A DNA stretch of 11,587 bases from an uncultured Peptococcaceae bacterium. Its GTDB lineage: Bacteria; Bacillota; Peptococcia; Peptococcales; Peptococcaceae. Of the stretch, positions 137 through 11,422 are shown piece after piece (position 1 is the first letter of the stretch; each line of letters starts with the position of its first letter). Location of the stretch: the NCBI GenBank assembly GCA_900552455.1, contig URZX01000049.1:1-11587 (forward strand). The letters are read 5' to 3'. A program made the translations under genes and the position numbers. The notes beneath the pieces were generated by a model that ran no database searches, was not told where the DNA came from, and saw only the letters and a list, made by a program, of their open reading frames with translations.

Positions 137-1081
137 ATGGATTATTACGAACAATTTGGAATCACTCGCATGTCTGGTGACGAGGTGCGCACAGTCTATG
201 GTGAGGCCGGACAGTGGCTTATGATCGTGTTCCACTTGTTTAGCGGGGTGGACGCTGTGTTGTATAACCAGTTTGCGAGATTTGAACGGGCGCCGGGAGA
301 ACTTCAGCTTGATGACACGCGGTATTATTGCATTTCTTATTACACGATGGGGTTGGTAGAAGCGGATCTTGGTAACCATCGACGACGGGAAGCGATGCCG
401 GGAATCATTGACGTGTTGCGTGATCATCCTGTGAGCGCGCAGACTGCGGTGCGTGCGGAAAGCGTGCATGGCTACAATGTGATACTTTTTCCGGAGCAGA
501 TTCAGCGGGAGCTTTCTGAGATGTTGGTACGTAATTTCGATGTGTCGCTTGCCGATACGATGGCGCTGCTCGATGAGGCTGCGATTGCGGCGTCTTTTAT
601 TCCAAACGAGCGTTTGCTGCACATCGCCGGAGAGCTTGGAGACTATCTAAAGGACGAGGCGATTGGCATGGTGCGTCTCAAAGTACTGGAATTCTTTCAT
701 GCGATTACCACCGGCGGGCTTAAATTTATTTCTTCGACAAAGCACTGTTCGCCGACGCACATCGAAAAAACCATGCGGATTCACGAGCGCATGTTGGCTG
801 ATCTCAGCCGTCGTGAAACGATTGCCGAGCTTTGCCGCGACGAAGGACTTTCGGAAACAACCTTTAAAGATTGTTTCAAAGCGCTTTACCAGCGCACCCC
901 TGGTGATTTTTTACGTACTGCGCGCATGAATCAGGCGGCCATTCTGCTGGCAGATTCCAAACGATCAATTGCAGAAATTTCACAGATGATGGGTTATGAC
1001 AATCCGAGCAATTTCACGCGCACGTTCAAAGGTGTGTACGGGATGCTGCCGAAGGTGTATCGAGAAAAATGTCTGAAATGA
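137..1081 (+). CDS. AraC/XylS-family transcriptional regulator (PchR/YbtA-like)
   Basis: DNA-binding regulator of 314 residues that probably controls the adjacent transport operon. Residues 1 to about 205 form a sensor region I cannot assign to a named domain. The C-terminal 100 residues carry the paired AraC helix-turn-helix motifs: the first around 228-251 (TIAELCRDEGLS...FK..F), the second around 277-309 (SIAEIS..MGY....NFTRTFK..YG..P), with the family hallmark GY-x-N/S-x-S-x-F-x-R-x-FK. The start at 137 follows GGAGG with a 7-nt spacer. Regulators of this architecture next to exporter-fold ABC pairs are typically activators that sense an imported iron chelate (PchR and YbtA are models), and a 15-bp direct repeat beginning at the end of this gene is a likely target. 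The family is secure from the motifs; the ligand and activator role are inferred from context. Confidence 0.9.
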   Translation: MDYYEQFGITRMSGDEVRTVYGEAGQWLMIVFHLFSGVDAVLYNQFARFERAPGELQLDDTRYYCISYYTMGLVEADLGNHRRREAMPGIIDVLRDHPVSAQTAVRAESVHGYNVILFPEQIQRELSEMLVRNFDVSLADTMALLDEAAIAASFIPNERLLHIAGELGDYLKDEAIGMVRLKVLEFFHAITTGGLKFISSTKHCSPTHIEKTMRIHERMLADLSRRETIAELCRDEGLSETTFKDCFKALYQRTPGDFLRTARMNQAAILLADSKRSIAEISQMMGYDNPSNFTRTFKGVYGMLPKVYREKCLK

Positions 1082-1103
1082 GCATTTTTGCCTGAAATGA
1101 GCA
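1070..1103 (+). promoter_or_regulatory. Direct repeat, probable AraC-family operator
   Basis: TGTCTGAAATGAGCA (1070-1084) and TGCCTGAAATGAGCA (1089-1103) are two same-orientation 15-mers differing at one base, with a 19-bp period and a 4-bp gap. The first copy overlaps the last codons and stop of the regulator gene. The second ends where the -35 of the downstream TATAAT would fall. AraC-family proteins commonly bind paired direct repeats about two helical turns apart abutting the -35, so this is the natural binding site for the neighbouring regulator. The repeat is directly visible; its function is inferred. Confidence 0.65.
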
Positions 1104-1131
1104 GGAAAAGTTTTATATGACAAACTATAAT
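1103..1131 (+). promoter_or_regulatory. Activator-dependent type promoter of the ABC-ECF operon
   Basis: A perfect TATAAT lies at 1126-1131. The -35 position for a 17-bp spacer (1103-1108, AGGAAA) has no resemblance to TTGACA. A consensus -10 with no -35, directly behind a paired repeat, is the expected layout of an activator-dependent promoter. The start of transcription would be near 1138, giving a leader of about 45 nt before the first ABC gene. Confidence 0.5.
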
Positions 1132-1169
1132 GACGGTAATCAGTAAGCACTGGTTAACGTCATTTTTTT
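1129..1169 (+). terminator. Hairpin with T-run between the regulator and the transport operon
   Basis: Arms 1129-1144 and 1149-1164 pair over 16 positions, with one mismatch (G1136/A1157) and one G-T wobble (1140/1153), around an AAGC tetraloop. A run of seven T (1163-1169) follows. This is the shape of a rho-independent terminator, although the stem is AT-rich. It would end transcripts coming from the regulator gene. It overlaps the TATAAT at 1126-1131, and a transcript starting near 1138 would lack most of the 5' arm and escape termination. It could instead be an operator dyad or an attenuator. Confidence 0.55.
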
Positions 1170-1183
1170 GTAAGGAAGTGATC

Positions 1184-2929
1184 ATGATGCAAGGTATTTT
1201 TGCGTACGGAGGCACGAACAATCGCCGTACGCTGCTTTCGGTTGTCGTGTTGTTCGTTGCGTCGGTGCTGTTGGTGATGCCGTATTATTTTGTTTATCGT
1301 GCAGTCACTGTGTTGTTGGACGGAGGCGCATTTTCGCCTGCGTTTATAGCCGAGCACGCCCTCATTATTGGTGGTTTGATGATTGTGCAGACGGTGCTTT
1401 ATACGAAGGGGCTGGATCTTTCTCATCAGGCAGCGTACGGCACTTTGATGAATCTACGGCTCTCGCTCGCTGAAAAGATGGAAAAACTGCCGCTGGGCGT
1501 GACCCAGCAAAAGGGCGTGGGTGCCTTGAAAAAGATTTTCACTGATGACATTGACAGTTTTGAAGTGCTTCTGGCACACGCCTTGCCGGAGGGCGTCGCT
1601 AATGCGCTTTCGACGCTCCTTGTGCTGACAGCGATTTTCGTTTGTGATTGGCGATTGGGCCTTCTGGTGCTTGCGGTGATCGTGTTGGGCATGGTGCCGG
1701 TGATGCTGATGGGGAGCATTGGCAACAAAGGTGCGGCCGACTACTACAATGCGAGCCGGCACATGAACAATACCATCATTGAATATGTCAACGGAATGGA
1801 AGTGGTCAAGGTCTTTAATAAAACCGGGGAATCCTACGCACGTTTCACCAATGCTGTCAACGATTATCGTGACTACACGCTGCGTTGGTATCGTGCCTGC
1901 TGGCCATGGATGGCGGCATATACGTCAATTCTTCCCTGCACGCTGCTCTTTGTGCTGCCTGTCGGCGCGGTTATGGTGATGAAAAACTGGGTGGCACTGC
2001 CAGATTTTGTGCTGGCAATTTGCCTGGCACTGGCGCTGGGGATGCCGCTTTTGCGCACGATGTCGTTCGTGTCGGTGATGCCGCAGATTCGCTACAAATT
2101 GGCGGAGCTGGAGCGTGTGCTGGATCATCAGCCGCTGATCGAAGGGCGCATTTGCGAAACTGCCAAGCAGGTTGATGTGGTGTTCGACCATGTTGATTTC
2201 AGTTATGAGGATGGCACGGAAATTTTGCACGATGTGTCGCTTGTGCTTGCACCGGGAACCAAGACGGCAATTGTCGGCGAGTCTGGCGCGGGCAAGAGCA
2301 CGCTGGCGAAGCTCCTCGTGCATTATTATGATGTGTCCGGTGGCGCTGTGCGTATTGGCGGCAGAGACTTGCGCGACTTGTCGCTTGCCGGATTGAATGC
2401 GCTTGTAAGTTATGTGTCGCAGGATAATTTTCTTTTCAACAGAAGTTTGGCTGACAACATTCGCCTCGGCCGTCCAGAGGCGACGGATGAAGAGGTGCTC
2501 CGCGCAGCGGAAGCCGCACAATGCGCAGATTTCATTGATGCGCTGCCCGAAGGCATTCACACACTGGCGGGTGACTGTGGCAACAGACTCAGCGGCGGCG
2601 AACGTCAGCGCATTACGCTGGCACGGGCGCTTCTCGCAGATGCACCGGTGCTGGTGCTGGATGAGGCGACGGCTTTCAGCGATGCTGAACATGAACGTCG
2701 GATAGAAGCAGTGTTGAATCAGTCCTGCGGAGATAAGACGCGACTGGTCATTGCGCACCGATTACAGACGATCTGCGATGCCGATCAGATCTGTGTGCTG
2801 GATGGCGGCCGCATACAGGATATAGGCACCCATGAGGAACTGCTTGGGCGCTGCGCCATTTACAAACGACTCTGGCAGGCAAACGAAGAAAGCGATGTTT
2901 GGCAGATAGAAGGGAGTGATGAGCCATGA
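1184..2929 (+). CDS. Exporter-fold ABC half-transporter, membrane domain fused to ATPase (first of a pair)
   Basis: A 581-residue half-transporter that should pair with the next gene product in the cytoplasmic membrane. The N-terminal ~320 residues hold about six membrane helices. The ATPase domain shows Walker A GESGAGKST (365-373, Lys371), Q-loop VSQDN, signature LSGGERQR (469-476), Walker B VLVLDEAT with Asp493 and Glu494, and His525 of the H-loop, so the ATPase site looks intact. The post-Walker B sequence DEATAFSDAE is unusual for multidrug exporters but resembles the DEATAF-D pattern I associate with YbtP/IrtA-type siderophore importers. The start at 1184 follows AAGGAAGTGATC (one mismatch from a full anti-Shine-Dalgarno match); ATG 1187 is equally possible. 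An in-frame ATG at 1130 would add 18 residues but lies inside the promoter/hairpin. Import of a metal chelate is inferred; export cannot be excluded. Confidence 0.9.
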   Translation: MMQGIFAYGGTNNRRTLLSVVVLFVASVLLVMPYYFVYRAVTVLLDGGAFSPAFIAEHALIIGGLMIVQTVLYTKGLDLSHQAAYGTLMNLRLSLAEKMEKLPLGVTQQKGVGALKKIFTDDIDSFEVLLAHALPEGVANALSTLLVLTAIFVCDWRLGLLVLAVIVLGMVPVMLMGSIGNKGAADYYNASRHMNNTIIEYVNGMEVVKVFNKTGESYARFTNAVNDYRDYTLRWYRACWPWMAAYTSILPCTLLFVLPVGAVMVMKNWVALPDFVLAICLALALGMPLLRTMSFVSVMPQIRYKLAELERVLDHQPLIEGRICETAKQVDVVFDHVDFSYEDGTEILHDVSLVLAPGTKTAIVGESGAGKSTLAKLLVHYYDVSGGAVRIGGRDLRDLSLAGLNALVSYVSQDNFLFNRSLADNIRLGRPEATDEEVLRAAEAAQCADFIDALPEGIHTLAGDCGNRLSGGERQRITLARALLADAPVLVLDEATAFSDAEHERRIEAVLNQSCGDKTRLVIAHRLQTICDADQICVLDGGRIQDIGTHEELLGRCAIYKRLWQANEESDVWQIEGSDEP

Positions 2930-4668
2930 TTCGACGTATGATTGCACGTGTCCTGAAGCTTTCGGGACGCTATAAGGGACGCATCCAAGGCGCGTTTGTT
3001 TTCTCGGTGTTCAATGTTATTTTTTCAAAAATGCCAATTTGTTATGCAATGATCACTGTTTACTGGCTTTCCCAGGGACAAATGACCGTTCGCATGGCGG
3101 GCGGCATTGCGGTGGCGATGGTTGTGACGCTGGTGCTACAAATGCTTTGCCAGCATGCTTCTGATCGCTTGCAGAGCGGCGCCGGGTATATGCTTTTTGC
3201 AGATAAACGTTTGGCGCTTGGCGATCATCTGAAACGGCTCCCGATGGGCTATTTCAACGCAGGGAACATTGGGCGTATCAGCTCGGTGCTCTCAACGGAC
3301 ATGCTGTTTGTTGAAGAAAATGTGATGCAGAAATTGGCGACGATTATGACCTATATTCTTTCGGCGGTCGTGCTGCTCGTGTTTCTCTTTGTGCTAAGCC
3401 CGGTTCTTGGTCTGATTGTGCTGGTGACGACACTGGCTGCGTTCGCTGTCGCTGGCGGCATGAACCGCGTTTCGCAGCGCTCGGCTGTGGCGCGCCAGGC
3501 GCAAAGCGAGCGGCTCACCGAAACAGTGTTGGAATTTGTGCGCGGCATTGCTGTAATCAAGAGCTGCAATTTGGTCGGTGAACAGTCTGATCTGCTCAGA
3601 AACAGCTTCCGTGATGCGCGGGATCAGGCAATCGCTTTTGAAAAGAGTATCCTCCCTTGGATGATGGGGCTTGGCGTGCTGTATGGGCTTGGCACGGCAG
3701 GCGTTTTTGCTGCCGGGCTTTGGGCTTACATGAACGATGGGCTTTCATTGTTGTATCTGCTTGGTATGCTGCTTTTCGTGCTCGAGATTTTCGGCCCGCT
3801 CAAAGCGCTGTTCGCTGAGTCGTCGAATCTCGCCATCATGGATAGCTGCCTAGATCGCATTGATGCGCTTTTTGCCGAGCCGGAACTTTGCGACGGTGCA
3901 CGCACCACGTTCCCGGATGATTGGCAGGGGCCGGTGGTGGAATACCGTCATGTGGGCTTTTCGTATGGCGAAGGCGAAGTGTTGCACGACGTTTCTTTTG
4001 CCATGCAGCCAAAAACGATGACGGCGCTGGTGGGATCGAGCGGAAGCGGCAAATCGACCGTTGCAAATCTCCTGCCGCGTTTTTGGGATGTATCAGACGG
4101 CGCGGTGCTGGTAGGCGGCGTCGATGTGCGGGAGCTTTCCTTTACAACGTTGATGGATCAAGTGAGCATGGTTTTCCAGAATGTGTATCTGTTCAACGAT
4201 ACGATCGCCAATAATATCGCCATGGCCAAACCAGACGCAACGGAAGAAGAGATCGTGCGTGCTGCCAAAAAAGCGCGTTGTTATGACTTCATCAGGGCAT
4301 TGCCAGAGGGCTTTCAAACGATGGTTGGCGAAGGCGGCGCGAATCTTTCCGGCGGAGAGAAGCAGCGCATTTCCATTGCACGCTCGATTCTCAAAGACGC
4401 ACCGATCGTCATTCTTGACGAAGCGACAGCCAGTGTTGACAGCGACAACGAGCGCCATATTCAGGAAGCCATTGACGCACTGGTGCGCGGCAAGGTGCTT
4501 TTGGTGATTGCACATCGTTTGCGGACCATCGAGCGCGCAGATCAAATCCTTGTGCTTGATGACGGACATATCGTTGAGCGTGGCACGCATCAGCAGCTTT
4601 TGGCACAAAATGGCCTTTACGCCGATCTTTATCGCAAAACCACAGGACGAACAGAAAGGATGGAATAA
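2926..4668 (+). CDS. Exporter-fold ABC half-transporter, membrane domain fused to ATPase (second of a pair)
   Basis: A 580-residue half-transporter and probable heterodimer partner of the preceding protein. Its ATG lies within the upstream stop (ATGA overlap at 2926-2929), with AGGGAG at 2911-2916 as ribosome binding site, so the two are translationally coupled. About six membrane helices occupy residues 20-300. The ATPase domain has Walker A GSSGSGKST (370-378, Lys376), Q-loop VFQN, signature LSGGEKQR (474-481), Walker B IVILDEAT with Asp498 and Glu499, a canonical D-loop (SVD, Asp505) and H-loop His530. Both subunits therefore keep a catalytic Glu and His, unlike many heterodimeric ABC exporters with one degenerate site. 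There is no siderophore-interacting domain of the kind fused to mycobacterial IrtA. The fold and pairing are secure; substrate and direction are inferred from the regulator and the ECF genes. Confidence 0.9.
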   Translation: MIRRMIARVLKLSGRYKGRIQGAFVFSVFNVIFSKMPICYAMITVYWLSQGQMTVRMAGGIAVAMVVTLVLQMLCQHASDRLQSGAGYMLFADKRLALGDHLKRLPMGYFNAGNIGRISSVLSTDMLFVEENVMQKLATIMTYILSAVVLLVFLFVLSPVLGLIVLVTTLAAFAVAGGMNRVSQRSAVARQAQSERLTETVLEFVRGIAVIKSCNLVGEQSDLLRNSFRDARDQAIAFEKSILPWMMGLGVLYGLGTAGVFAAGLWAYMNDGLSLLYLLGMLLFVLEIFGPLKALFAESSNLAIMDSCLDRIDALFAEPELCDGARTTFPDDWQGPVVEYRHVGFSYGEGEVLHDVSFAMQPKTMTALVGSSGSGKSTVANLLPRFWDVSDGAVLVGGVDVRELSFTTLMDQVSMVFQNVYLFNDTIANNIAMAKPDATEEEIVRAAKKARCYDFIRALPEGFQTMVGEGGANLSGGEKQRISIARSILKDAPIVILDEATASVDSDNERHIQEAIDALVRGKVLLVIAHRLRTIERADQILVLDDGHIVERGTHQQLLAQNGLYADLYRKTTGRTERME

Positions 4669-4670
4669 AT

Positions 4671-5264
4671 ATGAAAAACAACAACGCGTTAAACGGCAAA
4701 GATTTTATCAACATCGGTATCTTCACAGCAATCTACATGGTGATCGTGATCGCGATCGCCTGCACGGTGGGACTGATTCCAATCGGATTTATTCTATTGC
4801 CCATCATCCTGCCGATTATCGGTGGGATTCCAATGATGCTTTATTTTACCAAGATCAAAAAGCCTGGCATGTTGTTGATCTTTGAGATCCTATTTGGTAT
4901 TGTCATGATCTTGACTGGAATGGGCGTGGACCTTTTGATCTGGGGTGTCGCTGTTGGGATTATTGGTGAAATTCTTTACCGCGCTGCACATTACCAGAGC
5001 GCCAATATGGCGATTTTCACCTATGGCGTACTTTCAACCTGCATCTGCGGGAACTATATTCACTGGATTTCTGCCAGTCAGGATTGGCTTGATATGCAGG
5101 CAGCGACCTATGGCGATACTTATGTGACGACTATCCATGGTTTTCTCACAACTGGCTGGGGATTTCCGGCAATGATCGTTGGCGCCTTTCTCGCTGGCGT
5201 CGTTGGCGGGCTTATCGGCAAACGGGTGATGAAGAAGCATTTTGAAAAGAGTGGGCTTGTATGA
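4671..5264 (+). CDS. ECF transporter S component, Trep_Strep/MptE family
   Basis: A 197-residue integral membrane protein, very hydrophobic, with about six predicted helices (roughly 14-32, 36-58, 67-83, 85-103, 113-131, 163-187). The N-terminal pattern L-x-x-KDFI-x-IGIFTAIY and the GGIPMMLYFTKIKKPG segment are what I recognise as the Trep_Strep (MptE-like) family of ECF substrate-binding components. It would capture a small substrate and hand it to the T and A subunits encoded next. The gene starts 2 nt after the previous stop, with AAAGGA at 4655-4660 as ribosome binding site. Possible metal- or haem-ligating side chains near a membrane boundary are Cys124, Cys126 and His131, with His107 and His156 elsewhere; that role is speculation. 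Family members next to exporter-fold ABC pairs have been linked to haem uptake in streptococci, as I recall it. Confidence 0.8.
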   Translation: MKNNNALNGKDFINIGIFTAIYMVIVIAIACTVGLIPIGFILLPIILPIIGGIPMMLYFTKIKKPGMLLIFEILFGIVMILTGMGVDLLIWGVAVGIIGEILYRAAHYQSANMAIFTYGVLSTCICGNYIHWISASQDWLDMQAATYGDTYVTTIHGFLTTGWGFPAMIVGAFLAGVVGGLIGKRVMKKHFEKSGLV

Positions 5265-5998
5265 AGGTGGCCCATCTCCTCAGCGACATCTATGCGCCAA
5301 CGGCGAAAGCCAAGCAGCTTTACCTCGATCCACGAACGAAAATCGTGCTCTGTCTGGCGGTTTCCTTTATTATGTTGGATTCGACGATTTCGCCGGTGGT
5401 GAACGCGTTGCAGATCACGCTGGCGGCGCTGCCGCTCATCTTTCTGCTGATGCTGCGCAAATATAAAATGGCGGCTTATTATCTGTGCGCCTACGTCTTT
5501 GCATCGCTGGTGCCGCAGCTGCTTGTTCCGCTGCTCCCGGCGATTATCAATTTGCTCTTTACTGGAATGATCGCGCTCATGACGCAGATCCTGCCGGGAA
5601 TGATGATGGCCTATTTTCTCATCGTGAGTACTTCGGTGAGTGAATTTGTAACGGCGATGGACAGGATGCACGTACCCAAGAGCATCAGCGTGCCAATGTC
5701 GGTGCTCTTTCGCTTCTTTCCGACGATCGTGGAAGAATATGGACATGTGCGCGATGCCATGCGCATGCGCGAGGTTGGCAATTTGCGCCAGCCGATGGCC
5801 ATGCTCGAGTACCGTATGGTGCCCTTTATGACGAGCATCGTTTCCATCGGCAACGATCTGGCGGCGTCGGCGTTGACACGAGGACTTTCTGCACCAGTCA
5901 GACGCACGAACGTGTGCCCCATTGGCTTCACCTGGCGCGACGGGCTGGCATTTGTCCTGACAGGCGGCTGTATTGCCATTTTTCTCATCTATCGTTAG
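5261..5998 (+). CDS. ECF transporter transmembrane (T) component, EcfT/CbiQ family
   Basis: A 245-residue membrane protein that couples the ECF ATPase to the S component. The N-terminus LDPRTKI (about 22-28) followed by hydrophobic helices is typical of EcfT/CbiQ. The cytoplasmic coupling region holds the two Arg-containing motifs expected to dock on the ATPases: AMRMREVG (166-173) and LTRGL (205-209, Arg207), the latter matching the family's A-R-G motif closely and the former loosely. A C-terminal helix spans about 226-244. The start ATG overlaps the stop of the S gene (ATGA, 5261-5264) and has only a weak ribosome binding site (AAGAG at 5247-5251), so its translation probably depends on the upstream gene. 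A full set of S, T and A genes in one operon indicates a dedicated (group I) ECF system rather than one sharing a housekeeping EcfAAT module. Confidence 0.88.
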   Translation: MKVAHLLSDIYAPTAKAKQLYLDPRTKIVLCLAVSFIMLDSTISPVVNALQITLAALPLIFLLMLRKYKMAAYYLCAYVFASLVPQLLVPLLPAIINLLFTGMIALMTQILPGMMMAYFLIVSTSVSEFVTAMDRMHVPKSISVPMSVLFRFFPTIVEEYGHVRDAMRMREVGNLRQPMAMLEYRMVPFMTSIVSIGNDLAASALTRGLSAPVRRTNVCPIGFTWRDGLAFVLTGGCIAIFLIYR

Positions 5999-6008
5999 GA
6001 GGTGCGTG

Positions 6009-7481
6009 ATGATAACGTTTGATCGTGTGAGTTTTACCTACAACAACGCCGGAGTGGATGCTGGTGTGCACGACATCAATCTGGACATTCCTGCAGGCCA
6101 AGTTGTTCTTCTCTGCGGCAGCTCAGGCTGCGGAAAGACGACGCTGACGCGGCTCATCAATGGGTTGATTCCGCACTTTTACGAAGGCACGCTCACAGGA
6201 AATGTCACGGTAGATGGATGCACAGTGGACGAAACACCGCTTCACGCGCTGGCACCGATTGTTGGGTCGGTGTTTCAAAATCCCAAGAGCCAGTTTTACA
6301 CAGTGGAGACCGATTCTGAGATCGTTTTCGGCTGCGAGAATATTGGCCTGCCAAAAGAACAGATTTATGAACGCTTTGAAACCGTTGTGCCGGCACTCAA
6401 CCTGGAGGCGTTGTTGGGGCGCAGCCTGTTCGCTCTTAGCGGCGGTCAAAAGCAACAAATCGCCTGCGCGTCAGTGGCTGCGCTGCGTCCGCAGGTGCTT
6501 GTGATGGACGAGCCTTCATCCAATCTGGACATTGCCGCTGTAAGCGCGCTTGCTGAAATAATACGTAAGTGGAAAGAAGAGGGGCGCACCATTGTGATTG
6601 CTGAACATCGTCTCTATTGGTTGATGGATTTGGTGGATCGTGTGGTCATCATGGAGCACGGACGTATCGTGGACGATCTTCCTATCGACGATTTTCGGAG
6701 GCTCACGCCTCAGGCGCTGACAGAACGCGGTTTGCGTGCAAGGGAGATTTCTTTTGACGGATTACGCCTGCCTGGTGCTGCATCAGATGAAGCGCTCTGC
6801 TTTAACGACGTGGTTTTTTCCTATGGACGCGAGCGCGCGCTGGAGATTCCCACGCTAAAGATCCCATGTGGAAGTATTGTGGCCGTTATTGGAGTGAACG
6901 GCGCCGGCAAATCCACCTTCGGACGCTGCCTCTGCGGGCTTGAAAAGAAAATGCAAGGAACCATTTCTCTGCGGGGAAAAGTTCTCGGTTACAAGGAGCG
7001 CATCAAGCGAAGCTACCTCGTCATGCAGGATGTGAATCACCAGCTTTTTACCGAAAGCGTCGAGGAAGAAGTCATGCTTTCAATGGAAAAATCTCCCCTG
7101 AGCGACGCGCAAAAGTGTGAACAAGTGCAGGCGGTTCTTCAGACAATGCATCTGGAAGATTTTGCGCAGATACATCCTATGGCACTTTCCGGTGGTCAGA
7201 AGCAGCGTGTTTCTGTCGCCTGCGCGTTTGCCAGCGATAAAGAAATATTGGTTTACGACGAACCAACAAGCGGGCTTGATCATGCGCGTATGTTGAATGT
7301 GGCTGAAGTGATGAAAACGATGCAAACGCGAGGCAAAACGCAATTTGTCATCACACACGACCCGGAACTCATTGTACAGGTCTGCGATTATCTGCTGTTT
7401 CTCGAAAAAGGTCATGTACGCTGTGCAGGACCGTTCAGTGATGAGTATGTTCAAGCGCTCGAGGCGTTCTTTATTGGATAG
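6009..7481 (+). CDS. ECF transporter ATPase with two fused ABC domains
   Basis: A 490-residue cytoplasmic protein with two complete ECF-type ATPase domains in tandem, replacing the usual separate EcfA1/EcfA2 pair. Domain 1 has Walker A GSSGCGKTT (37-45, Lys43), signature LSGGQKQQ (143-150), Walker B LVMDEPSSNLD (Asp167, Glu168) and His200. Domain 2 has Walker A GVNGAGKST (295-303, Lys301), signature LSGGQKQR (393-400), Walker B LVYDEPTSGLD (Asp417, Glu418) and His450. Both sites look catalytically competent. The start at 6009 follows AGGAGGTG (5997-6004), which overlaps the T-gene stop; an ATG at 5973 would add 12 residues inside the upstream gene and lacks this site. It powers transport through the T component encoded just upstream and is the last gene of the operon. 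Confidence 0.92.
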   Translation: MITFDRVSFTYNNAGVDAGVHDINLDIPAGQVVLLCGSSGCGKTTLTRLINGLIPHFYEGTLTGNVTVDGCTVDETPLHALAPIVGSVFQNPKSQFYTVETDSEIVFGCENIGLPKEQIYERFETVVPALNLEALLGRSLFALSGGQKQQIACASVAALRPQVLVMDEPSSNLDIAAVSALAEIIRKWKEEGRTIVIAEHRLYWLMDLVDRVVIMEHGRIVDDLPIDDFRRLTPQALTERGLRAREISFDGLRLPGAASDEALCFNDVVFSYGRERALEIPTLKIPCGSIVAVIGVNGAGKSTFGRCLCGLEKKMQGTISLRGKVLGYKERIKRSYLVMQDVNHQLFTESVEEEVMLSMEKSPLSDAQKCEQVQAVLQTMHLEDFAQIHPMALSGGQKQRVSVACAFASDKEILVYDEPTSGLDHARMLNVAEVMKTMQTRGKTQFVITHDPELIVQVCDYLLFLEKGHVRCAGPFSDEYVQALEAFFIG

Positions 7482-7758: not shown

Positions 7759-10425
<2,667 letters not shown>

Positions 10426-10432
10426 AACCAAC

Positions 10433-10693
10433 ATGAGAGACGATCTCGATCAGACGATGTATTTTGACAAGAACAACTTGCAGAAGGAGATGGGGCCAAG
10501 AGAAGTGCTCCGCGAAGTCTACGCCGCGCTGGAAGCCAAGGGCTATCAGCCGCTGAACCAGATGGTCGGCTACATCTTATCCGGAGACCCAGCCTACATC
10601 ACCAGCTACAACAATGCCCGCGCATTGATCAAGAAGTTTGACAGAGATCAGTACATCGAAGAAATGCTGGTCAACTATTTGGATGAGCGCTGA
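10433..10693 (+). CDS. ireB: IreB-family regulatory phosphoprotein (UPF0297/DUF965)
   Basis: A small soluble 86-residue protein of full family length. The N-terminus DQTMYFD followed by the LREVYAALEAKGYQPLNQ-type stretch, then GYILSGDPAYIT and the NARALI-KK-DRD segment, are diagnostic. In Enterococcus faecalis, IreB is a substrate of the PASTA kinase IreK and phosphatase IreP and acts in cephalosporin resistance; the phosphorylated Thr residues there are near the N-terminus, where this protein has Thr8. No kinase gene is in the window, so that link is family knowledge only. AAGGAG (10417-10422) overlaps the end of alaS and lies 10 nt before the ATG. The next gene starts just after this stop, and the order alaS-ireB-ruvX is widely conserved in Bacillota. 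Confidence 0.95.
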   Translation: MRDDLDQTMYFDKNNLQKEMGPREVLREVYAALEAKGYQPLNQMVGYILSGDPAYITSYNNARALIKKFDRDQYIEEMLVNYLDER

Positions 10694-10694
10694 G

Positions 10695-11117
10695 ATGACC
10701 GGACGTCTCGTATGTTTTGACGTGGGCGAACGGCGCATCGGCATCGCCGCCAGCGATCTCTTGGGGATCACAGCGCAGCCGGTGGAAACGTACACGCGCA
10801 CAGGGAAAATAGAAGAAGATTACCAGTATCTGGCGAAGATTTTGCGCGACCAGGAAGCCGTGAAGCTCGTGGTCGGCCTTCCCAAAAATATGAACAACAC
10901 CCTTGGCTTCAAGGCGCAGGAGATCCAGGAATTCATCGCCGGATTCCAGCCCCATCTGCCAGAAGGCTTTCCCATCGACTGGATCGATGAGCGACTGACC
11001 ACCGTGCAGGCCGAAGGCGTGCTCCTCGAGGCCAACGTGTCTCGAAAGAAAAGAAAGAAATTTGTAGACAAGATCGCGGCCGTGTTTATGCTGCAGGCAT
11101 ACATGGACGCTCATTAA
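10695..11117 (+). CDS. ruvX: RuvX/YqgF-type RNase H-fold nuclease (putative Holliday junction resolvase)
   Basis: A 140-residue protein of the usual YqgF length. It carries the N-terminal FDVGERRIGIAASD motif (Asp9), the VVGLPKNMN segment, the WIDERLTT motif (Asp98, Glu99) and the C-terminal KKFVDKIAAVFMLQ motif (Asp125), so the acidic residues of the RNase H-like active site are all present. Family members are proposed to resolve Holliday junctions or to act in 5'-end processing of pre-16S rRNA; the cellular role varies by species. The ATG at 10695 begins 1 nt after the ireB stop. An in-frame ATG at 10683, overlapping ireB, would add four residues and has no better ribosome binding site. A longer frame from 10638 lies wholly within ireB and is not credible. 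Weak Shine-Dalgarno sequence suggests translational coupling to ireB. Confidence 0.94.
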   Translation: MTGRLVCFDVGERRIGIAASDLLGITAQPVETYTRTGKIEEDYQYLAKILRDQEAVKLVVGLPKNMNNTLGFKAQEIQEFIAGFQPHLPEGFPIDWIDERLTTVQAEGVLLEANVSRKKRKKFVDKIAAVFMLQAYMDAH

Positions 11118-11128
11118 GGAGGATCCTC

Positions 11129-11422
11129 ATGGACGAAAACAAAGAATATCTCGACAACGAAGAAGAACTCGAAGACGGCCTCGTCGTGCTCGTAGACGAA
11201 GACGGCCACGAACACACCTTGCAGGTGCTCGAACGCGTCGAACTCAACGGCAACGACTACGCCATCCTCGTGCCTTGGGACGAGGAAGAAGACGACAGCG
11301 CCATTCCGTTCAAGATCGTCGTCGAAGACGGCGAAGAGCTGCTCTACGACATCGAAGACGACGACGAATGGGAAGCCATCGTCGAATTCTGGAACAACTA
11401 CGTCGACGAACAGGAAGACTGA
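11129..11422 (+). CDS. yrzB: DUF1292 family protein (YrzB-like)
   Basis: A 97-residue extremely acidic protein: about 38 residues are Asp or Glu, in an acidic N-terminal run, a central WDEEEDD stretch and an acidic tail. The core pattern, D-E-D-G-x-E followed by Y-A-I-L-V-P, then V-E-D-G-E-E-L-Y-D-I-E-D-D-x-E-W-E, is the DUF1292 signature. Its function is unknown. Its position right behind ruvX is the conserved one in Bacillota, which supports the call. AAGGAGG at 11116-11122 overlaps the ruvX stop and lies 6 nt before the ATG, one of the strongest ribosome binding sites in the window. It is the last gene before a strong terminator. The gene symbol follows the Bacillus subtilis homologue by position and family, not by any proven role. 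Confidence 0.92.
   Translation: MDENKEYLDNEEELEDGLVVLVDEDGHEHTLQVLERVELNGNDYAILVPWDEEEDDSAIPFKIVVEDGEELLYDIEDDDEWEAIVEFWNNYVDEQED

Follow-up and report, generated by a model that had tools for sequence, protein, structure and literature searches.

The 11,587-nucleotide contig URZX01000049.1 of an uncultured Peptococcaceae bacterium (assembly GCA_900552455.1), here called the window, carries an araC-family regulator gene and a five-gene operon encoding two ATP-binding cassette (ABC) half-transporters and an energy-coupling factor (ECF) importer. The locus is probably an AraC-controlled uptake system for the metal complex of an aryl-thiazoline (yersiniabactin/pyochelin/equibactin-like) metallophore. 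An earlier note, made from the sequence of this DNA, had named a metal chelate or haem as possible substrates. The metal-chelate class was upheld by the linkage of relatives to thiazoline-siderophore gene clusters. The genes are as follows.

137..1081, + strand: araC-family regulator, 314 aa; only the C-terminal helix-turn-helix (HTH) matches models
1187..2929, + strand: P1, YbtP/IrtA-like ABC half-transporter; start at 1184 or 1187
2926..4668, + strand: P2, ABC half-transporter, on the YbtQ side in trees
4671..5264, + strand: ECF S component of the Trep_Strep/MptD family, 197 aa
5261..5998, + strand: ECF T component, CbiQ family
6009..7481, + strand: ECF ATPase, fused A-A, from ATG 6009; two nucleotide-binding domains (NBDs) in one chain

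The clade of the window's own S protein (support 100/100) contains two lineages in which the transporter genes closely follow a thiazoline cluster. In Faecalicatena contorta (genome G008, locus L017), genes for an aryl-AMP ligase, a non-ribosomal peptide synthetase (NRPS), a thiazolinyl imide reductase (TZR) and a second NRPS are followed by two small genes and P-P-S-T-A. In Propionibacterium australiense (G005, L008), aryl-AMP ligase, NRPS and reductase genes stand before S-T-A. The reductase model TIGR01761 scored 203 bits in G008 and 256 bits in G005 (cut-off 188.8), and the aryl ligases of both genomes best matched TIGR02275, below its cut-off. The five transporter proteins of a Ruminococcus metagenome-assembled genome (MAG; L015) were 95–99% identical to those of G008 (S 95.4%), with an NRPS gene there too. 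The thiazoline NRPS clusters of F. contorta (L310, 4281–17452) and P. australiense (L309, 3858–17593) also contain macrolide-type glycosyltransferase and hexapeptide acetyltransferase matches below curated cut-offs, hinting at a glycosylated thiazoline siderophore.

The linkage was counted in a class-wide sample of 391 genomes from the class of G008. TIGR01761 matched at E 0.001 in 43 genomes and over its cut-off in nine, all of which also have PF09605, the Pfam family of the S protein. For nine of ten thiazoline clusters, PF09605 lay on the same contig about 1 to 21 kb away, compared to 0.72 of ten linked clusters expected from random placement (P 1.4e-11 within 22 kb, a distance chosen after data inspection). 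The sample had been drawn around G008, which was already known at that point, and the G1227 cluster is a near-copy of that of G1256. Linkage was 8/9 without G008 (P 3.4e-10) and 7/8 without G1227 as well (P 5.4e-9). Layouts included TZR-NRPS-P-P-S-T-A (L370), NRPS-TZR-x-divergent AraC-S-T-A-P-P (L365) and, in a genome from the phylum of Propionibacterium, NRPS-TZR-x-P-P-S-T-A (L373). Linked loci L363, L366 and L367 had S-T-A and no pair in the stretch read. Cluster-linked S proteins were scattered among uptake-only ones in the S tree. This kind of system is already known from Streptococcus equi eqb and Clostridioides difficile 023_CTn1. A description of how widely PF09605 and thiazoline clusters are linked across the family was not found in the literature searched, mostly titles and the starts of abstracts.

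The arrangement of the window's genes agreed with the earlier note, which had described an AraC regulator, two half-transporters and ECF S, T and A-A subunits joined by overlaps or short gaps. ATGA overlaps join P1 to P2 (2926–2929) and S to T (5261–5264), with gaps of 2 nt between P2 and S and 10 nt between T and A-A. S, T and A are encoded together, as in a dedicated (group I) ECF transporter, also as that note had it. The S protein scored 110.3 bits against TIGR02185 (cut-off 76.45) and 164.3 bits against PF09605 (cut-off 28.7), and the best matches to its structure model (pLDDT 91) include S-component folds. The regulator has a C-terminal AraC HTH and adjoins transporter genes, as PchR/YbtA-type proteins do. 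A protein search gave seven relatives of it with E≤0.001 among 1358 candidates, and no specific NCBIfam model stood above its cut-off among the matches listed. The P1 start codon, ATG at 1184 or 1187, is preceded by AAGGAAG; the start at 1130 given by the open reading frame finder falls within a hairpin.

The half-transporter pair had been likened to YbtPQ, and phylogeny supported this. P1 scored best with YbtP among single half-transporters (325 bits; next, IrtA) and was 35.6% identical to it over 89%. P2 showed no clear preference by score (YbtQ 279, Sav1866 275 and MsbA 273 bits). In the half-transporter tree, P1 and P2 grouped with YbtPQ, away from MsbA, MdlAB and 15 others (split 97/99). 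In a first tree, YbtP stood with the P1 rows and YbtQ with those of P2; support was weak at some of the inner forks. Both NBDs of P1/P2 carry the consensus motifs. Among 29 half-transporters added from three genomes, five that do not lie near PF09605 also fell on the YbtPQ side and one was a long-branch outlier; this side is therefore not exclusive to PF09605 loci.

The generality of the arrangement was assessed on 80 named loci, the best of 358 found when 21 aligned S proteins served as the query (three of the 80 without an S call). Among the loci that had an S call, 60 offered ≥17 kb of sequence; 50 of these 60 had at least two half-transporter genes within 9 kb, and in 44 the half-transporter genes shared the operon of S. 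Gene order was shuffled and content retained. The 77 classified operons comprised PPSTA (17), SRPPTA (14), STARPP (8), STA alone (7), STAPP with divergent AraC (6), STA with divergent AraC (5) and rarer types. An AraC gene lay within or adjoining 44 of the 77. An ABC pair accompanied 16 of 20 PF09605 loci and 1 of 20 CbiQ loci without PF09605 (L234; Fisher 1.1e-6) in a hand-picked comparison with controls from ten genomes and cases from five of those genomes, some control stretches being <16 kb and three cases (L257, L263, L265) repeating named loci. Across three genomes, 30 of 73 half-transporter genes lay within 8 kb of PF09605, with 4.2 expected. The joint occurrence of ABC pair and PF09605 ECF module exceeds chance. 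Genomes G001, G003, G009, G012 and G1256 hold 7 to 9 PF09605 matches each, two of the nine in G001 being pieces of one interrupted copy. Copies with stops or in pieces were seen in G001 (L096, L099) and G772 (L171, L174, L176), and by their sequences the family is decaying in places. In the order of Enterococcus sp. 665A, PF09605 exceeded its cut-off in 151 of 395 sampled genomes, nearly always as a single copy, and many of these copies had no ABC pair among the contexts read.

The closest described systems combine the same parts; statements on published loci are taken from excerpts of the cited reports. The equibactin locus eqbH-L on ICESe2 of S. equi has a three-gene importer and two YbtPQ-like half-transporters, and most of the iron accumulation that depends on equibactin requires eqbHIJ (PMC3672683). 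EqbHIJ would be an ECF set, likened here by description. Unlike the window, the eqb locus has its own NRPS genes, a DtxR-like regulator and another order (PMC3672683). Table 1 of the report on 023_CTn1 of C. difficile clade 3 lists ABC, ABC, AraC, ATPase, ECF and membrane protein, which is the window's part list (PMC6814731). That set differs in order and sits on a conjugative element, where the next genes encode thiazolinyl imide reductase, NRPS, salicylate synthase and a DtxR/MntR-type regulator (PMC6814731). The window has the ECF-like module, ABC pair and regulator of these two systems and not their NRPS genes; as a relative confined to uptake it falls short of full membership.

Other loci resemble the window in part. 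An AcrR-ABC-ABC-A-T-MptD set of Parvimonas micra has the same transporter parts and a regulator, which is of TetR/AcrR type; its order is A-T-S and it adjoins a sigma-70 gene (PMC11076991). The mptABCDEF locus of Mycobacterium avium subsp. paratuberculosis, likened by description, has two transporters, one IrtAB-like, and its MptD names the S family; unlike the window it is under zinc/FurB regulation on an island with sid genes (PMC4298942, PMC4132290). An AraC regulator adjoins a half-transporter pair in YbtPQ/YbtA (Klebsiella record, L273), as in the window; the stretch read contains no ECF module. LhaSTA of Staphylococcus lugdunensis is likewise a dedicated ECF importer for an iron compound, likened by description; the excerpt of its report describes no half-transporter pair (PMC7299338). 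The Bifidobacterium breve sifABCDE genes were dropped as relatives, SifB and SifC being FtsX-like permeases (PMC5449479).

Metal-responsive boxes were searched upstream of 135 S operons, with 542 other operons of the same loci for comparison; the rows are not independent, since S genes that are the same or nearly identical account for seven repeats, and since L001 and L180, which both count among the 12 matches reported next, are one locus. A 19-mer palindrome putatively of the DtxR/IdeR type, named by likeness to one consensus, matched with ≤4 mismatches before 12/135 S operons and 2/542 others (p 1.6e-7). None of 300 palindromes with permuted halves reached 12 matches at 4 mismatches (best 4). 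At ≤3 mismatches the counts were 2/135 and 1/542 (p 0.1, not significant), and matches fell only on S operons themselves, in two of six genomes searched. The Fur 7-1-7 box with ≤2 mismatches was enriched (9/135 vs 4/542, p 1.4e-4), and Zur-like boxes were not (2/135 vs 5/542). The nearest ECF relative, L001, has a 4-mismatch DtxR-like box at -60. The palindrome often lies ~20–60 nt before the start codon, as at L070 (-32), L031 (-36) and L047 (-34). In the window, the Fur 19-mer gave 0 matches, and the best Zur-like matches in the two promoter regions had 5 and 6 mismatches of 14 to a single consensus. Two 3-mismatch matches to the 7-1-7 box (0.37 expected), one of them at positions 104–118, upstream of araC, are not claimed as a Fur box. 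The association with Fur boxes that the earlier note had proposed as a check thus held in part, before relatives' S operons, and not in the window's own promoters at the levels counted.

The two transporters of the window have different nearest relatives. Its S, T and A are closest to those of L001, a Peptococcaceae MAG locus (78, 74 and 65% identical; about 78–80% for S, the nearest in named genomes). P1 and P2 are closest to L181, another locus of the same genome (53 and 56%). ECF and ABC modules have probably been exchanged between loci, as these identities suggest, and the ABC pair would therefore work with a chelate class and not with one fixed partner. Mantel correlations (S-P1 0.79, S-T 0.87, S-R 0.71) are weak evidence, in which co-function is not separable from shared descent. 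The earlier idea that both transporters act on the same or related substrates is plausible from the conserved linkage; strict matching is unsupported, the modules being of different sub-lineages.

Several observations concern mobility of the family. S proteins 98.6–99% identical (L006, L007 and protein P0038) occur in Catonella morbi, Lachnospiraceae oral taxon 107 and, by the name of the protein, Streptococcus dysgalactiae, and thus appear recently transferred. Near-identical transporter cassettes (L002, L003, L004) are found in records labelled Peptoniphilus, Anaerococcus and Eggerthia. In L002 (6752–8092, 17478–19846), genes for a relaxase, for a sigma-70 region 4 protein and for a Tn916-type integrase flank the cassette, which so looks conjugative-element-borne. 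A plasmid search with the S protein, and megablast of L006 against plasmids, gave no match.

A number of results weigh against uptake of an aryl-thiazoline chelate as the function of the locus. Thiazoline NRPS and other biosynthesis genes are absent from the 11.6-kb window, and its two promoter regions contain no Fur or DtxR box at the mismatch levels counted. NRPS, aryl-ligase or reductase relatives were seen in the flanks of just 5 of the 80 named loci; flanks were read to ≤10 kb per locus, and producers with biosynthesis genes are therefore undercounted. G1174 is a genome with TIGR01761 and no PF09605 linkage, and in G005 a thioesterase gene, a short ABC fragment and a transposase-like gene separate the NRPS from S. 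L001 has no ABC pair within 9 kb. The S protein beside the nearest P pair, at L181, is just 25% identical to that of the window, and P1/P2 are 27–36% identical to the pairs of the window's own S clade. Among the described systems, eqbKL deletion does not block equibactin action (PMC3672683), and mptABC responds to zinc, not iron (PMC4298942).

The eqbKL result bears on the alternative that the ABC pair is an exporter, for chelator recycling or efflux, and the ECF module the sole importer. The iron-toxicity phenotype persisted after the deletion, and medium conditioned by the EqbKL mutant was twofold less active, which the authors took as possible efflux (PMC3672683). The pair also has the exporter fold. 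On the other hand, it lies on the YbtPQ side of the tree and is retained at many loci whose flanks, as far as read, lack biosynthesis genes and where export of an own siderophore would not be needed; recycling is compatible with this. We regard the exporter alternative as somewhat unlikely. It is rather improbable that the chelate class is the same and the physiological metal zinc, or copper, instead of iron. Yersiniabactin binds zinc and copper. The mptABC genes are FurB/Zur regulated (PMC4298942), as a zinc system would be, whereas DtxR-like and Fur-like boxes, not Zur-like ones, are enriched upstream of the window's relatives, and the window itself is without a clear box.

Haem uptake, by an ECF importer like SiaFGH with the ABC pair handling haem or a product, is improbable. 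SiaFGH was reportedly the subject of a 2020 study by Chatterjee. The window's order is identical to that of siaDEFGH in group A Streptococcus, and the order given in the earlier note was right: siaD and siaE encode ABC proteins and siaF, siaG and siaH ECF S, T and A (PMC6593403). Sia-type S proteins also belong to PF09605 (G344). NEAT genes were present in 6 of 147 streptococcal genomes, with the P-P-S-T-A order of the sia type in five of the six regions and not in the sixth (L232). However, the window's S is 19–22% identical to the five sia-type S proteins, which form a separate clade (support 100/99). The one sia ABC pair sampled fell on the exporter side of the half-transporter tree on long branches, siaDE standing beside CydCD in the first tree. 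The sia genes also differ in lying behind shr-shp-siaABC under MtsR regulation (PMC6593403), while the window's ten genes include no NEAT protein, haem receptor or binding protein. Relatives recurrently adjoin thiazoline NRPS genes, not haem genes; an association with haem genes, one of the checks proposed in the earlier note, is unsupported. Haem was rejected as the main substrate because the sia-type S and ABC proteins lie in other clades; judged by these sequences, gene order alone does not carry substrate. A vitamin, corrinoid or drug-export locus is less probable still. ECF modules often move vitamins, and the nearest folds to the S model are vitamin S components. Against this, the window has no Rfam match at gathering score, the commonest recurrent extra family near S is TetR-like (28 of 120 loci), no vitamin gene family was among the recurrent clusters looked at, not all of which were identified, and the ABC pair stands apart from 15 other half-transporters.

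Control by the AraC protein is suggested by the region between araC and the operon, which contains three features.

1070..1103, + strand: direct repeat overlapping the araC 3' end, candidate AraC operator
1126..1131, + strand: TATAAT, candidate -10 box for the five-gene operon
1129..1169, + strand: hairpin (1129–1164) and run of seven T (1163–1169), candidate araC terminator

The repeat comprises two 15-nt copies (1070–1084 and 1089–1103), 14/15 identical and 19 nt apart start-to-start; none of 2000 shuffles had one equally good. The hairpin folds at -16.1 kcal/mol (z -5.8). A transcript started ~7 nt past TATAAT would begin inside the 5' arm with most of the arm missing. When folded from 1138, the upper seven pairs alone form and the T run pairs elsewhere. 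The hairpin would terminate the araC transcript, and the AraC-driven operon transcript would escape termination because it starts inside the araC terminator. Directly 3' of the operon on the same strand are alaS, ireB, ruvX and a DUF1292 gene (7774–11422), and no tRNA was found in the window. For the AlaS protein there is one match at 100% and one at 80% named Peptococcaceae bacterium.

For the uptake of an aryl-thiazoline metallophore, the following mechanism is proposed. Without the help of a binding protein, the S subunit would capture the loaded chelate at the membrane, and entry of the chelate would be driven by T and A-A, much as reported for EqbHIJ with equibactin. The YbtPQ-type pair may import the same chelate class or expel the emptied chelator. 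The AraC protein would sense the chelate and switch on the operon from the promoter inside the araC terminator. The chelate is possibly made by other organisms. The window has neither biosynthesis genes nor a binding protein, as the earlier note had observed, and the chelate may therefore be scavenged, the source which that note had suggested. Scavenging may be the simplest reading, given this absence from 11.6 kb.

More broadly, and tentatively, PF09605 ECF modules with YbtPQ-type pairs could be the machinery by which Gram-positive anaerobes in general take up thiazoline metallophores across the membrane. Most copies, the window's among them, would then be uptake-only units for scavenging, with as many as eight in one genome; many would have an AraC or TetR sensor of their own, and loci would have exchanged ECF and ABC modules. 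If so, a large family labelled only 'putative ECF S component' would gain a directly testable substrate class, and the haem branch (sia) would be separated from a siderophore branch with which it now shares its annotation. The uptake-only copies would make xenosiderophore scavenging common among gut and oral anaerobes.

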